The notes beneath the pieces were generated by a model. The model was not told the DNA's origin, searched no databases, and saw only the letters and a list, made by a program, of their open reading frames with translations. 26,434 nucleotides of DNA from a virus: the IMG/VR virus record IMGVR_UViG_3300044617_000234, positions 1-26,434 of that record; one strand, written 5' to 3'. Made by a program: the position numbers and the translations under genes. Every line of letters begins with the position of its first letter. Within the stretch, counting starts at the first letter, position 1. Below, piece after piece: positions 6,229-26,395 of this stretch.

Positions 6229-6651
6229 ATGGCCCGTATCGTATTAACAGATGCCTCAGTTGTAATTAACGGCACAAATTTAAGCCAATATATTACGAGT
6301 GTGGCACTTTCAACAAGCGAAGATGTTGTTGACACTACAGGAATGGCAGCGGGCGGAGCGCGTACCCGTGTTGCTGGCCTTGCTGACAATTCAGTCACAT
6401 TTGAATTTAATCAAGATTTTGATGCTCTAGGAACTGAAGTAACAATCAATGCAGTTGGTTCATCACTTGTTGGAACAAATGTAACTTGTGTAGTAAAGCC
6501 AACATCAGGAGCAGTAGGTGTTTCAAATCCTAGTTATTCATTTTCAGCAGTTGTTGCAGAGTGGCAGCCACTATCAGGTGCGGTTGGAGAACTGGCAACA
6601 GTTTCTACAACTTGGCCGATCTCAGGCGTGATTACAAAGGCAGTTGCATAA
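6229..6651 (+). CDS. Tail tube protein, paralogue 1
   Basis: 140 residues of beta-rich sequence. It starts MARIVLTDASVVINGTNLSQYITSVALS, has DVVDTTGMAAGGARTRVAGLADNSVTFEFNQDFD in the middle, and ends AEWQPLSGAVGELATVSTTWPISG. This is the pattern of a siphovirus tail tube protein, which stacks in hexameric rings to form the DNA conduit. Position ahead of the tail assembly chaperone and tape measure supports this. It is clearly paralogous to the next gene; which of the two builds most of the tube cannot be told. Confidence 0.75.
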   Translation: MARIVLTDASVVINGTNLSQYITSVALSTSEDVVDTTGMAAGGARTRVAGLADNSVTFEFNQDFDALGTEVTINAVGSSLVGTNVTCVVKPTSGAVGVSNPSYSFSAVVAEWQPLSGAVGELATVSTTWPISGVITKAVA

Positions 6652-7107
6652 ATGGCACGCCTTGTACTAACAGATGCCAATGTTTTGTTTGCAACATCAC
6701 CTGGTAACGCTGCAACAAATGACATTTCAGCGTTTATTACATCACTTTCATTAAGCACATCTTATGATGTAATTGACACCACAGGAATTTCAACTACAGG
6801 TGCAGCTCGTACCCGTGTTGCTGGCCTTGCCGATAACTCAATCACCATTGAGTTTAACAATGATTATGCAGACAATTCACTTGAAGAACTTATTAACGGA
6901 ACGACAACCACAAACGGCACTGTTGGCTTAGTAGTTGCAATGCAGGTTAAGCCAACATCAGGTGCAACAAGTGCCAGCAATCCAAAGTATAATTTCAATG
7001 TGCTTGTTGCAGAATGGCAGCCACTATCAGGTGCAGTTGGTGAATTATCAACGGCATCTGTAACTTGGCCGATCTCAGGTCCAATTACAAAATCAATTAC
7101 ACCGTAA
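6652..7107 (+). CDS. Tail tube protein, paralogue 2
   Basis: 151 residues, starting one base after the stop of the previous gene. It shares MAR(I/L)VLTDA, the block ending GARTRVAGLADNS, and AEWQPLSGAVGEL with its neighbour, but has inserts after residue 12 and in the middle (LEELINGTTTTNGT). Both copies are intact. It may form part of the tube, a tube with alternating rings, or a specialised ring at one end. The next gene begins after AAGGGGGAAAAG, a strong ribosome-binding site. Confidence 0.75.
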   Translation: MARLVLTDANVLFATSPGNAATNDISAFITSLSLSTSYDVIDTTGISTTGAARTRVAGLADNSITIEFNNDYADNSLEELINGTTTTNGTVGLVVAMQVKPTSGATSASNPKYNFNVLVAEWQPLSGAVGELSTASVTWPISGPITKSITP

Positions 7108-19668: not shown

Positions 19669-20733
19669 ATGCGTTTTCATATTGTGGCGTTGCCACACAC
19701 ACAGGTAACAAAAGAGTTCGCAGGGTGCGCCTTTACTGAAAAGGTCAGGCGCTTTTGTATAATGATGCACGATCTTGGCCACGAAGTATTCCTTTATGCT
19801 GGCGATGAGGTTGAGGCACCTGTCACCGAACTGATTACTTGTGTGTCAAAGAAGCAACAAGAGGCTGCACTTCACGGTGTAGCTCACTACACCCAGTTCC
19901 CGTTTAACGGGTGGCTTTGGGATTCTTTCAACGCAAAGGCCATTACTGAAATTGCAGATCGCATTGAAAAAGAAGATTTCATTTGCTTAATCGGCGGCAG
20001 CGCACAAAAGCCAATTGCCGATGCCTTTCCAGCCCATATGTCGGTGGAGTTTGGCGTTGGCTACGGCGGCGTGTTTGCCAAGTATCGGGTGTTTGAGTCT
20101 TATGCCTGGATGCACTCAATCTATGCAGGGTGGAAAAACCCAACAACGGCAGATGGCCAGTTTTACGATGCCGTGATTCCTGGTTATTTAGAACCTGAAA
20201 TGTTCCCATTGGGAGACGGGCAAGGTGATTACTACCTGTTCATTGGTCGGTTGATTGATCGCAAGGGTTACAGAATTGCCCAAGAAGTCTGCGAAAGATT
20301 AGGCAAACGGCTTATCTTGGCAGGGCCTGGTGAGCAATCAGGATATGGCGAGTTTGTTGGGTCAGTTGGACCCGAACAACGAGCTAAATTGATGGGTGGA
20401 GCAATAGCCACCTTTGCACCAACACTGTATGTAGAACCTTTTGGCAATGTAGTAATTGAATCACAGGCTTGTGGCACGCCAACAATCACAACTGATTGGG
20501 GCGCATTTACAGAGAACAATCCCGATGGGATTTCAGGGTTTAGATGCCGTACTTTGGCTGAATTTATGCAGGCAGCCGAAGGGGTCAAATACCTAGATCG
20601 CGCCAAAATCCGCAATCGTGCGGTATCGCTCTATAACCTTGATACTATCGGCCTTCAATACGAGGCTTACTTTAAGCGCCTGTTGACCCTTTGGGGCGAT
20701 GGCTGGTATGAAATGGGGGATGCAAATGGATAG
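19669..20733 (+). CDS. GT-B fold (GT4-like) glycosyltransferase
   Basis: 354 residues. The C-terminal half has the GT4 pattern: YYLFIGRLIDRKGYRIAQEV (residues 188-207), RLILAGPGEQSGYG, APTLYVEPFGNVVIESQACG with the E256-x7-E264 donor-binding pair, and PTITTDWGAFTEN. The N-terminal half has EKVRRFCIMMHDLGHEVFLYAGD, usual for this fold. It would transfer a sugar from a nucleotide donor; acceptor unknown. It lies after the fibre genes and overlaps a DUF6378-like gene, with a GT25-like gene beyond. The shared ribosome-binding-site hairpin links it to the gene at 4269. Confidence 0.85.
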   Translation: MRFHIVALPHTQVTKEFAGCAFTEKVRRFCIMMHDLGHEVFLYAGDEVEAPVTELITCVSKKQQEAALHGVAHYTQFPFNGWLWDSFNAKAITEIADRIEKEDFICLIGGSAQKPIADAFPAHMSVEFGVGYGGVFAKYRVFESYAWMHSIYAGWKNPTTADGQFYDAVIPGYLEPEMFPLGDGQGDYYLFIGRLIDRKGYRIAQEVCERLGKRLILAGPGEQSGYGEFVGSVGPEQRAKLMGGAIATFAPTLYVEPFGNVVIESQACGTPTITTDWGAFTENNPDGISGFRCRTLAEFMQAAEGVKYLDRAKIRNRAVSLYNLDTIGLQYEAYFKRLLTLWGDGWYEMGDANG

Positions 20734-20992
20734 AGGCGAAATACTAGATGAAGCCAAACGCCTTACTCACGGTGACAGAAACAAGAATTATGGCAAACCG
20801 CTTACCAATCACCAGCGCATTGCAGGTTTGTGGAGCATATTTTTAGAAACTGAAATTACACCTGCTCAGGCTGCAATGTGTTTGGCATTGGTCAAAGTTG
20901 CACGCCTGATTGAAACACCCGATCACCTTGATAGTTTCGTGGACTTGGCGGCCTACGCCAGCATTGCAGGCGAGATTGAAACCGACATTTAA
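20726..20992 (+). CDS. DUF6378-like protein, 88 residues
   Basis: From the ATG at 20726, chosen because GGGGG lies six bases before it; ATG at 20720 is an alternative. The sequence MDRGEILDEAKRLTHGDRNK, NYGKPLTNHQRIAGLWSIFL and ARLIETPDHLDSFVDLAAYA matches the phage domain I know as DUF6378 (pattern 'L.EA..L..GDR...YG.P..N..RIA.LW', ending 'D...DLA.YA'). Its biochemical role is not known to me. Enclosed by two glycosyltransferases and overlapping both. Confidence 0.72.
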   Translation: MDRGEILDEAKRLTHGDRNKNYGKPLTNHQRIAGLWSIFLETEITPAQAAMCLALVKVARLIETPDHLDSFVDLAAYASIAGEIETDI

Positions 20993-21563
20993 CGAGGTAT
21001 TTGAAAAAGTTATTGTTATCAATCTTGCTAAACGACCTGATCGAATGGCGCAGATTAAAGCGCAGTTAGATGCTCACAAAATTACCTTTGAACGCTTTGA
21101 AGCTATTGATGCTCAAGAATTAGGCATTACTGGTGTTCAGGCTTGTGCGCTTAGTCACCGTGGGGTAATTGAGCAATATAAAAATGCTGGCAATGTGTTC
21201 ATATTTGAAGATGATGCAGAATTTATTGAAGATTTTGAACAATTATGGGATGTGTTTATTGCCAACTTGCCCGATGATTGGCAGATGCTTTATCTTGGGT
21301 GCAACAAGATTGATTGGCAACCTATTGCAAAAGGTGTAGCTCGATTATCGGCTGGCATTGCAACCCACGCATACGGGGCAAAACAATCAGTTTTTGATTC
21401 TATGATTGATGCCAGCAAACGCGCTGAACCCATTGATTTATCGTATATGCAGTTGCAGGTGTCGGTGCCAACTTATGTTGCAGTTCCCAGTATGGTTGGG
21501 CAGGTTCCAGGGTTTTCAGATATTGAACACAGATTTACAGATTACAGAAATACATTAGGATAG
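20976..21563 (+). CDS. GT25-family glycosyltransferase
   Basis: 195 residues if it starts at the TTG at 20976, which has AGGCGAG just before it; there is no ATG or GTG near the conserved N-terminus, and a TTG at 20910 is an alternative. The body is typical of GT25: EKVIVINLAKRPDRMAQIKA, ITFERFEAIDAQELG, GVQACALSHRGVIEQYK, and NVFIFEDDAEF with the E78-D79-D80 acidic motif. Bacterial members build surface glycans; animal and giant-virus members glycosylate collagen. It ends just before an intrinsic terminator and overlaps the DUF6378-like gene. Confidence 0.8.
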   Translation: MKPTFNEVFEKVIVINLAKRPDRMAQIKAQLDAHKITFERFEAIDAQELGITGVQACALSHRGVIEQYKNAGNVFIFEDDAEFIEDFEQLWDVFIANLPDDWQMLYLGCNKIDWQPIAKGVARLSAGIATHAYGAKQSVFDSMIDASKRAEPIDLSYMQLQVSVPTYVAVPSMVGQVPGFSDIEHRFTDYRNTLG

Positions 21564-22992: not shown

Positions 22993-23064
22993 CGGCTGAA
23001 AGCGTGGGAACCCGAAGAAATTGGGGAATTGCTAGGGTTTCCACGCCTTTCCACACCTTTGCCC

Positions 23065-23079
23065 TACACTTGGCCAATG
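23065..23079 (+). promoter_or_regulatory. Possible leaderless start of the Ntn-hydrolase gene
   Basis: TACACT (23065-23070) is followed by six bases and then ATG (23077-23079). This places a -10-like box at -12 to -7 if transcription starts on the A of the ATG. No Shine-Dalgarno sequence precedes the ATG. Leaderless mRNAs are common in Actinobacteria. The -35 region is weak. Confidence 0.4.
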
Positions 23080-23610
23080 ACCACGCTAATAGCCTTTCAG
23101 GGGCCTGATTTTGCCATTCTAGGGGCAGACTCTCAGGTGACCGATGGCGATAAGCGCATCATCTCACCCAGCACGCCCAAGATCGTAAAGCTGAAGAAGT
23201 ATTTGCTGGCAGTTAGCGGTGATTGCAGGCCAGGTGACATTCTCACTTACAACTGGACACCGCCCGCTTTTGATGGCACTAACCCAGTTACCTTTATGGG
23301 TCGAAAGATCATCCCAAGCATCATTGCGGCGTTTAAGTTGCAGGGATTTGATTACACCAAAGAAGGAATCAGTTATTCATACTTGTTGGCCTTTGCTGGC
23401 AATGTATTTGAAATTGGCGATGACTTGAGCGTTACCCAATCTGAAGATGGCCTGTATGGGGTCGGCTCAGGCAGTGCCTACGCGCTTGGCGCATTGGCGG
23501 AGCTGGTGCCCAATGTCGGCAAGGCTGAAATCCTCAAGGCACTTGCCATTGCCGCTAAATATGACATCAACACCGCCAAACCTTTTCAGATTGAAGTTCA
23601 GCGAGTCTAG
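23077..23610 (+). CDS. Proteasome beta/HslV-like Ntn-hydrolase
   Basis: 177 residues from the ATG at 23077, close to the length of HslV. After removal of Met the chain starts TTLIAFQGPDFAILGADSQV. Counting that Thr as 1, Asp is at 17 exactly as in proteasome beta subunits, and PKIV puts Lys at 34, one off the usual Lys33. AVSGDCRPGDIL matches the strand-turn after the active site, and LYGVGSGSAYALGALAEL is the family GSG(S)..ALGAL motif, followed by the helix AEILKALAIAAKYD. There is no propeptide, as in HslV. It would be a threonine peptidase, perhaps forming rings, but no ATPase partner is encoded here. Longer TTG starts at 23029 would hide the Thr and are unlikely. Confidence 0.82.
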   Translation: MTTLIAFQGPDFAILGADSQVTDGDKRIISPSTPKIVKLKKYLLAVSGDCRPGDILTYNWTPPAFDGTNPVTFMGRKIIPSIIAAFKLQGFDYTKEGISYSYLLAFAGNVFEIGDDLSVTQSEDGLYGVGSGSAYALGALAELVPNVGKAEILKALAIAAKYDINTAKPFQIEVQRV

Positions 23611-23674: not shown

Positions 23675-23767
23675 ATGTTTTGGTTAGGCTTAGTGTGTGG
23701 ATTTATAGGCATCATTTGCCTTTATCTCATCATCATTGCAGCTTTTGAAATCGGTGAAGGCCGATGA
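23675..23767 (+). CDS. Mini membrane protein, 30 residues
   Basis: ATG with AAGGAAAAACAA before it; an upstream in-frame ATG at 23639 has no such site. MFWLGLVCGFIGIICLYLII followed by IAAFEIGEGR is one membrane segment with a short acidic cytoplasmic or outer end. Its stop overlaps the next start (ATGA at 23764). No family recognised; size and type resemble phage membrane micro-proteins. Confidence 0.55.
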   Translation: MFWLGLVCGFIGIICLYLIIIAAFEIGEGR

Positions 23768-24129
23768 ACTTAGAAAAGCAACCACGCGACCCACTATTTT
23801 CAATTCATAATCATTCAGACGGACACATTGCCCTTTATCTTGAAGAACAAGATGCAGTAAAGGATTTAGTGCAAGATGTTGTTGGTGCTTATGAATTAGA
23901 TGATTTGGACTTGTTGCGCCATTCTGCAGATCGCTCAGTTAAATCTGAAAACTACTTTGAACACCTTGATAATGCCCGCGATAACTTGGGCGAGAACGCA
24001 CCATTGCTTTGCAATATGACAGAGCAAGAAGCACTTATTTTGGCTGAAGATTTGATTCGAGCAGTTAAGTTTGCCCGCATCAGCCGTGAGGCTGGTACCA
24101 ACTACCCATCATTGAAGGCGGTTAAATAA
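23764..24129 (+). CDS. Unknown acidic protein, 121 residues
   Basis: Starts in an ATGA overlap. MNLEKQPRDPLFSIHNHSDG is followed by an acidic helical region (ALYLEEQDAVKDLVQDVVGA, then ELDDLDLLRHSADRSVKSEN) and ends NYPSLKAVK. The C-terminal part with EQEALILAEDLIRAVKFARI looks like a helix pair. No motif that I recognise. It precedes the nuclease gene by four bases and belongs to the same operon as WhiB and the recombination genes. Confidence 0.7.
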   Translation: MNLEKQPRDPLFSIHNHSDGHIALYLEEQDAVKDLVQDVVGAYELDDLDLLRHSADRSVKSENYFEHLDNARDNLGENAPLLCNMTEQEALILAEDLIRAVKFARISREAGTNYPSLKAVK

Positions 24130-24133
24130 CTCA

Positions 24134-24484
24134 ATGGCTAATCCAAACGGGCGCAAAGGCGCACAATTTGAAACCGATGTTATGCGTTGGCTTCGCGGTG
24201 CTGGTGCCTTATGTGAGCGTTTGGTAAAGGCAGGTAAGAACGATGAAGGCGATTTAGTCGCAATCATTGGTGGCAAGCAATACATTCTTGAACTCAAGAA
24301 TCGTAAAACAATAAGTTTGCCTGAATTTTGGCGTGAAGCCGAAGTTGAGGCAGAAAACTATGCAAAGGCTCGCGGATTAACCGAGGTGCCATTGCATTAC
24401 ATCATTCTCAAGCGCCGAAACGCTGGGATTGAAAAGGCTTGGGTAATCCAAGACTTAACTCAATGGTTGGCAGAAAAGCATTGA
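24134..24484 (+). CDS. Hjc-like PD-(D/E)XK nuclease, probable Holliday junction resolvase
   Basis: 116 residues. MANPNGRKGAQFETDVMRWL begins the usual first helix with E13; KNDEGDLVAIIGGKQYILEL provides D40 and then E53-L-K55, so the pattern E-xn-D-x12-ExK of the PD-(D/E)XK fold is complete. AEVEAENYAKARGLTEVPLH and the closing WVIQDLTQWL fit archaeal Hjc-type or related phage resolvases. It would cut branched DNA during replication or before packaging. The WhiB gene starts inside its 3' end. Confidence 0.78.
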   Translation: MANPNGRKGAQFETDVMRWLRGAGALCERLVKAGKNDEGDLVAIIGGKQYILELKNRKTISLPEFWREAEVEAENYAKARGLTEVPLHYIILKRRNAGIEKAWVIQDLTQWLAEKH

Positions 24485-24933
24485 ATCAATTTGAATTCTT
24501 TGTTGATCTACCACGATTTGATAAGGCTAAGTGTGCAGATGTTGAGGACAAGGATTTATTCTTTCCCGATAACCGCACACAAGAGGCAGAAAGACTGCAC
24601 CAACTTAAAGCTATTTGCTCAAGTTGTATTCACGAAAAGGAGTGTTTGGAGTACGCACTAGAAAAACAGATTCCCTACGGTATTTGGGGTGGCTCAACGC
24701 CAGCCGATAGAGATACCGTTGCAATTGCTAAGGGTAAGAGTTATGCGTTCAAAGGAATTGCATTAACGATTACCAAATTGCATAAAAAAGGGGTTTCTGC
24801 CAACGAAATTGCAGCACAACTTAATACTTCGCCTGGTTATGTCAGTCGTGTATTGCGTAAGTTGATTGCAACTGAACAAGGAGCAGCACCATTACACCAA
24901 CAGATAAAAGACTCATCCGAAGGCTTGCACTAA
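24463..24933 (+). CDS. WhiB-family regulator with extra helix-turn-helix
   Basis: 156 residues from the ATG at 24463; TTG at 24481, in a TTGA overlap with the nuclease stop, is an alternative. The four iron-sulphur Cys are C24, C52, C55 and C61 (KCADVEDKDLFFP, ICSSCIHEKEC), followed by the G-I-W-G-G turn at 73-77, so the WhiB domain is complete. Residues about 99-135 (TKLHKKGVSANEIAAQLNTS, then PGYVSRVLRKLI) form a second DNA-binding unit of the helix-turn-helix type, which host WhiB proteins normally lack. WhiB proteins bind the main sigma factor; phage copies can alter host transcription. Confidence 0.85.
   Translation: MVGRKALNQFEFFVDLPRFDKAKCADVEDKDLFFPDNRTQEAERLHQLKAICSSCIHEKECLEYALEKQIPYGIWGGSTPADRDTVAIAKGKSYAFKGIALTITKLHKKGVSANEIAAQLNTSPGYVSRVLRKLIATEQGAAPLHQQIKDSSEGLH
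24878..24893 (+). promoter_or_regulatory. Strong ribosome-binding site leading to an ATT start
   Basis: AAGGAG (24878-24883), seven bases, then ATT (24891-24893). The frame is closed upstream at TGA 24873-24875, and no ATG, GTG or TTG occurs in it until GTG 24939, which would remove the charged part of the signal peptide. Confidence 0.55.
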
Positions 24934-25654: not shown

Positions 25655-26395
25655 ATGAATTTCACGCCTTTGAACTCGCCAGCACAACAGTTAGCCGTTG
25701 AACTCGGCGGCATAATTAGCGAAGCAAGTAAGTGGTCTCCACGAAGCCAACAGGTTTATATCGGACCAAGTGAAGTTGGCCAAGAGTGTGTTCGCAGACT
25801 TGCCTACAAGTTGCTGGATTGGGATAAGGCAAATGAATCGGGTGGCGGTTCCTGGGCTGCCAATGTCGGCACCGCCATCCATTCATTTCTTGAAGAAATC
25901 TTTGCCAAGATGCCTGAACGATATGAGGTTGAGCAGAAAGTAAAGATTCGAGCAAATCTTTCAGGCACCATTGACCTTTACGATATTGAAAAAGGTTATG
26001 TATTGGACTGGAAAACTACATCACCTGCAGGTGTTAAAGCCAAACGCAGTGAAGGTGCCACCGCACAACAGATTACCCAGGTTCAGCTTTACGGTTACGG
26101 CAAAGCACAATTAGGTGTAACCGTGAACAAGGTTGGCCTTGTTTTCTTGCCGACAGGCGGTTCCATTGATGATATGCACATTGAGTTGTTTGATTACGAC
26201 GAGCAGGCAGCACTTGATGCACTTGCTCGCCTTGATTCAGTTTATTCATTGCTATCTACCATTGATGTTGAGACAACACCTGCTATGTGGCCGTTGATTC
26301 CAGCAACACCAAGCCGAATGTGTATGTATTGCCCTTATTACCGACCTTTTAGCACTGATCTATCAGTTGCTTGCAATGGTGATACCGATGTGTGA
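25655..26395 (+). CDS. Cas4-like [4Fe-4S] PD-(D/E)XK exonuclease
   Basis: 246 residues. The first Cys of the cluster is C45 (GQECVRRLAY), then GTAIHSFLEEIF with H76, GTIDLYD with D107, VLDWKTTS with D118-x-K120, and the QVQLYGYGKAQ motif. The other three cluster Cys are C223, C226 and C240 (RMCMYCPYYRPF and VAC). This matches the RecB-nuclease/Cas4 layout of phage 5'-3' exonucleases used in recombination. There is no cas1, cas2 or CRISPR repeat in the window, so a role in phage recombination or replication is more likely than CRISPR adaptation. The next gene overlaps its end. Confidence 0.82.
   Translation: MNFTPLNSPAQQLAVELGGIISEASKWSPRSQQVYIGPSEVGQECVRRLAYKLLDWDKANESGGGSWAANVGTAIHSFLEEIFAKMPERYEVEQKVKIRANLSGTIDLYDIEKGYVLDWKTTSPAGVKAKRSEGATAQQITQVQLYGYGKAQLGVTVNKVGLVFLPTGGSIDDMHIELFDYDEQAALDALARLDSVYSLLSTIDVETTPAMWPLIPATPSRMCMYCPYYRPFSTDLSVACNGDTDV

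Follow-up and report, generated by a model that had tools for sequence, protein, structure and literature searches.

A conserved proteasome-fold peptidase gene heading a WhiB operon in phages that probably infect freshwater actinobacteria

The peptidase gene and its operon

The window analysed here, meaning the whole 26,434-nt stretch of IMG/VR record IMGVR_UViG_3300044617_000234, carries on its plus strand, at 23077-23610, a gene for a proteasome-like N-terminal threonine peptidase of 177 amino acids. The translated open reading frame is MTTLIAFQGPDFAILGADSQVT...GVGSGSAYALGAL...DINTAKPFQIEVQRV, and the N-terminus of the protein is MTTLIAFQGPDFAILGADSQ. The mechanically called frame reaches an in-frame TTG at 23029, 48 bases 5' of the ATG. 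Since Met-Thr-Thr is kept among 57 full-length IMG/VR relatives (68-99% identical) while the frame 5' of the ATG diverges, the ATG at 23077 is the real start, with Thr directly after Met, and the longer start at the TTG is ruled out. This agrees with an earlier sequence-only reading of the same DNA, which had described an enzyme lacking a propeptide. In mature numbering (Met removed, Thr = 1), the protein has Thr1, Asp17, Lys34, Gly47, a GSG motif at 129-131 (Ser130), Asp162 and Thr165. The residue set of the proteasome/HslV-like family (PF00227), Thr/Ser1, Asp17, Lys33 and Gly47, is thus present as T1, D17, K34 and G47, so that the proteasome-like spacing proposed earlier holds, with the Lys one position beyond Lys33 of proteasomes.

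The peptidase gene is the first of a co-directional run, all on the plus strand. It is followed by a conserved gene for a 121-aa protein (23764-24129; 56 clade loci) that matches no Pfam or PHROG family, a gene for a RusA-like Holliday junction resolvase family protein (24134-24484; phrog_244, E 3e-19; 53 clade loci), a gene for a WhiB-like transcription factor with an HTH-like C-terminal region (24439-24933; PF02467, E 7e-16; 47 clade loci) and a gene for a PD-(D/E)XK exonuclease-like protein (25655-26395; PF12705, E 3e-8; phrog_1674, E 4e-59). The order of the peptidase, 121-aa, RusA-like and WhiB genes is conserved across the clade of close relatives to which the window belongs (clade W, the window clade). 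The co-directional run and this conserved order bear out the view that the gene is promoter-proximal and first in an operon with WhiB and nuclease genes. The WhiB product appears to be a WhiB-HTH fusion, with the WhiB domain at residues 28-92 followed by the HTH-like region at about 110-155. Elsewhere in the window, two glycosyltransferase-like genes (19669-20733 and 20910-21563) lie between the fibre genes and the WhiB operon, and the adjacent genes at 6229-6651 and 6652-7107 both match the major tail protein family phrog_4574.

At 23065-23070 on the plus strand, 6 nt before the ATG, stands the hexamer TACACT, a candidate promoter -10 element of the form TANNNT, and no Shine-Dalgarno motif is present. 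Of 67 window-clade genes, 63 have such a hexamer 4-7 nt ahead of the start codon, as against 7.7% in shuffled sequences, these genes being related rather than independent of each other. A Shine-Dalgarno-like motif precedes none of the 67 window-clade peptidase genes vs 67 of 68 genes in clade C, a second phage clade described below. A generic sigma-70 scan did not report the hexamer at 23065-23070. Because the conserved TANNNT hexamer is so close to an ATG without a Shine-Dalgarno motif, the window-clade peptidase mRNA is probably leaderless and transcribed from its own promoter.

Predicted fold and nearest families

The Pfam Proteasome model matches residues 2-48 of the peptidase (E 1e-6, 29 bits vs a cutoff of 22.4), and phrog_1040, named 'peptidase HslV family', matches it over its full length (residues 1-175, E 2.8e-24). 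An AlphaFold model built from a 70-sequence alignment reached a pLDDT of 95.3 and a pTM of 0.90, with the helix pairs 50-59/70-88 and 133-143/149-162 around both sheets and the helices 50-59 and 70-88 standing between S6 and S7. The best solved match of this model in Foldseek was the beta-proteobacterial proteasome homologue BPH (PDB 5ovs, E 1e-10), and VIA-align gave Z scores of 19.1 for BPH, 18.8 for HslV, 18.3 for yeast beta5 and 17.9 for Anbu; across BPH, HslV, 20S beta subunits and Anbu the range was 17.5-19.1. The predicted structure is thus the proteasome-type Ntn-hydrolase sandwich (the PF00227 fold), as the sequence-only reading had expected, and the alternative fold that it had named as grounds for dropping the idea was not seen in the comparison with HslV and Anbu. 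By sequence and by model, the window gene product is confirmed as a real and conserved protein of the proteasome fold, and a chance match is excluded.

Within this fold, a profile of the phage peptidase family scored BPH 5ovs at 104.6 bits (E 5e-29), HslV at 71 bits and 20S beta subunits at about 45 bits, and the NCBIfam HslV models gave the window peptidase 30.9 bits vs a cutoff of 137 and 26.9 bits vs 157.75. Based on these scores, we consider the peptidase a group I proteasome homologue nearest to BPH rather than an HslV proper. It shares with HslV (ClpQ) the fold and the active site, but the phage has no HslU gene and the Lys stands at 34 rather than 33; together with scores so far under the cutoffs, the missing HslU gene rules out an HslV equivalog, and the name of phrog_1040 therefore overstates the relationship for the window peptidase. 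Phages DSL-LC01, LanE43AprF5 and Pseudoalteromonas J2-1 and Vibrio and Pantoea phages also match that family.

The likeness to BPH (5ovs/5ovt/5ovu) goes beyond these best profile and fold matches and includes a TT start without a propeptide, Thr1, Asp17 and the Lys, a GSG-x-x-YALGA motif, a D-x-x-S/T motif near the C-terminus and the lack of a partner ATPase. The two nevertheless differ in several respects: they are only about 20% identical, the phage protein is phage-borne and sits on a separate tree branch, and the H2-S7 pore loop, long and acidic in BPH (PMC5777263), has 11 residues in the phage peptidase and is not acidic (QGFDYTKEGIS). In BPH the start Met is removed, epoxomicin binds covalently at Thr1 and the subunits form a 14-mer double ring, for which no unfoldase is known (PMC5777263).

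As BPH itself is inactive on model substrates (PMC5777263), peptidase activity of the phage protein cannot be assumed, and the protein could instead be a specialised Ntn enzyme rather than a general protease, either a connectase-like peptide ligase or an amidase with a single substrate. Connectase shows that ligation is possible in this fold (PMC8665760), and the peptidase-type residues of the phage protein are conserved. The model, however, has both helix pairs, the first of which connectase lacks (PMC8665760), shows no large S3-S4 insertion and gives no pointer to a ligation substrate, so we regard a specialised enzyme of this kind as unlikely and favour a threonine peptidase.

Phage homologues of the proteasome are a known kind, since Fuchs et al. 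2021 (PMC8665760) described two groups in phages, PPH and AAH, both lacking propeptides and AAA+ partners, and phrog_1040 also catalogues members. The window peptidase resembles both as a phage-borne group I homologue with no propeptide and no identified AAA+ partner. PPH are about 140 aa long and lack helix H2, and the 177-aa length and the presence of H2 in the model rule out that identity here. The possible relation to AAH is taken up with the tree below.

Relatives, hosts and gene neighbourhoods

Scans of IMG/VR gave relatives of the peptidase on at least 547 viral contigs, and a scan of 84,980 prokaryote genomes gave only 14 distant relatives, with best segments 26-49% identical. Among named phages, relatives occur in Actinomycetia phage DSL-LC01, several gammaproteobacterial phages, Microbacterium phage Pumpernickel, and Klebsiella and Vibrio phages, some of them annotated as HslV, proteasome subunit or protease. 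Relatives about 31-34% identical to a protein of a third phage clade, clade D, are also encoded on plasmids of Rhizobium, Sinorhizobium, Mesorhizobium and Streptomyces. The tree, from a quick search and with some long branches, resolved the three phage clades W (SH-aLRT 100), C (99) and D (88), which join a group of plasmid and gammaproteobacterial phage sequences (94) apart from HslV and from the branch containing BPH (98). The Rhizobium and Streptomyces plasmid relatives may be AAH, and in this tree the window clade falls outside their branch.

None of the 198 distinct sequences from clades W, C and D departs from Thr1, Asp17 or Lys34, although part of the constancy of Thr1 and Lys34 reflects how the hits were selected, as Thr1 was in the pattern of one profile scan and Lys34 in those of two more; none of the profile-scan patterns contained Asp17. 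Gly47 and Ser/Thr130 are also kept. Homologues without the N-terminal Thr, which would have spoken against the sequence-only reading, were not seen among these 198. The accessory residues vary, as clade C mostly has Asn at the position of Asp162. With dN/dS values of 0.03-0.23 relative to the window gene, the peptidase gene is shown to be under purifying selection. Outside the phages, 'Ca. Parabeggiatoa' carries two BPH-like genes in tandem (L297, 5818-6393 and 6483-7052), both with Ser1, and in the second Glu replaces Asp17, as might be expected of an inactive subunit.

WhiB is an actinophage marker (PMC10202952, PMC6802176) and was present in 42 of the 48 phage records searched, including 14 of 14 window-clade records. 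Clade C includes the cultured lytic actinophages LanE43-AprE7 and LanE43-AprF5 (OX376640 and OX376641), which were isolated on 'Ca. Planktophila' LanE-43 (PMC10202952) and encode a full-length homologue about 36% identical to the window peptidase. An actinobacterial host, as proposed from the sequence, is thereby borne out. As the carrier phages mostly encode WhiB, they probably infect freshwater actinobacteria, and this branch of peptidases occurs widely among the phages of abundant lake bacteria.

The neighbourhoods in clades C and D bring up a different role, in which the peptidase would cleave scaffold, portal or internal head proteins as the capsid matures. Unlike in the window clade, the gene in clade C stands outside a WhiB operon and directly 3' of the portal gene in 68 of 69 loci, with TerL upstream, and in clade D the portal lies about 1 kb downstream of the peptidase gene in 19 loci. 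The 34 clade C and D records gave no match to the phrog_80 head protease, and where the gene neighbours portal, as in clade C and part of clade D, a late or head role is a better fit than early action. The window clade offers the opposite picture: the peptidase gene lies inside the WhiB operon, well away from the head genes, and 13 of 13 near-complete contigs have a dedicated phrog_80 head maturation protease, which in the window lies at 1771-2721 on the plus strand (213 bits). Because of this separate enzyme, a head role of the gene at 23077, and with it a prohead protease identity, is disfavoured in the window clade, and we rate head assembly as an improbable function, though the peptidase may have a head role in clade C. 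A search with the T4-type prohead protease model (PF03420) gave no match, and no signal from the control either. In clade D, WhiB is near the peptidase gene in 22 loci. A 390-aa metallophosphoesterase-like gene, named by eye, precedes the peptidase gene in 33 clade D loci, for example about 1.2 kb upstream in locus L167 (6826-7998).

Proposed role in the phage

The sequence-only reading noted no ATPase gene in the window, and profile searches for AAA (PF00004) and AAA_2 (PF07724) found none there. In the wider set of phage records, AAA_2 (HslU/ClpX-type) was absent from 47 of 48, including every window-clade record, and PF00004 was absent from 14 of 14 window-clade records, so the window clade has no HslU/ClpX- or Mpa-type AAA gene, and an HslU partner encoded alongside, as expected of HslV, is not found there. 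Five clade D records (L303-L307) have an AAA ATPase of about 540 aa located 8-10 kb from the peptidase gene, with a conserved gene block between the two. These proteins were set aside as partners, being non-adjacent and absent from the window clade.

Proteasomes occur within the phylum Actinobacteria. With actinobacterial hosts and no phage ATPase in the window clade, the peptidase could join, block or be fed by a host machine, either in mixed rings with PrcB or HslV or by using the host ClpX, ClpC or Mpa unfoldase. The sequence, however, is nearer to BPH and then HslV than to 20S beta subunits, and TIGR03690, the model for bacterial 20S beta, is not among the matches of the peptidase at E up to 1. 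The earlier suggestion that it mixes into the host PrcAB proteasome is therefore unlikely, a PrcB mimic is likewise disfavoured, and we consider a dependence on host machinery in any of these forms doubtful.

Our preferred reading, to which we give a probability of roughly 55%, is that the window gene encodes an N-terminal threonine peptidase with a competent active site, from group I of the proteasome family (the HslV/BPH branch), which self-assembles, needs no ATPase and probably acts early. Following the BPH precedent, host methionine aminopeptidase would remove the Met and free Thr1 with no propeptide to process, and the subunits would then self-assemble as a closed pair of homo-oligomeric rings, as in BPH (14-mer) or HslV (12-mer). 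With no dedicated ATPase, such a particle might cut proteins that are unfolded, or specific small ones, probably with narrow specificity by analogy with BPH, and its targets may be host or phage regulatory proteins. Transcription from a promoter of its own at the head of the WhiB/nuclease operon, probably into a leaderless mRNA, would fit early action, which gene position makes probable in the window clade. Far more tentatively, the window clade could be a distinct, unnamed viral subfamily of self-compartmentalizing peptidases in freshwater actinophages, leaderless and first in the WhiB operon, whose ATPase-free ring clears a defined host protein early.

While phage members of the group are already published (PPH and AAH; PMC8665760) and catalogued (phrog_1040), their number in viral contigs, the three clades of mostly WhiB-encoding phages, one of them with cultured Planktophila phages, and the window-clade gene heading a RusA-like/WhiB operon behind a conserved TANNNT hexamer without a Shine-Dalgarno motif are new. 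In our literature search, no study turned up that had tested what a phage HslV-like peptidase or proteasome homologue does, nor any joining Nanopelagicales and the proteasome. Fuchs et al. 2021 found no Actinobacteria-specific phages encoding AAH (PMC8665760); if the family is AAH, these actinophages fill that gap, and if it is not, clade W is an unnamed subfamily. Because two lytic phages in culture carry a clade C relative, the role of a viral proteasome subunit is directly testable, and this would show whether the proteasome fold can act as a protease without an unfoldase. The records of these two phages, OX376641 and OX376640 (loci L065 and L067), bear the organism name 'Caudovirales sp. 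ct2KA10' and are unannotated, with the peptidase gene directly 3' of the portal gene.
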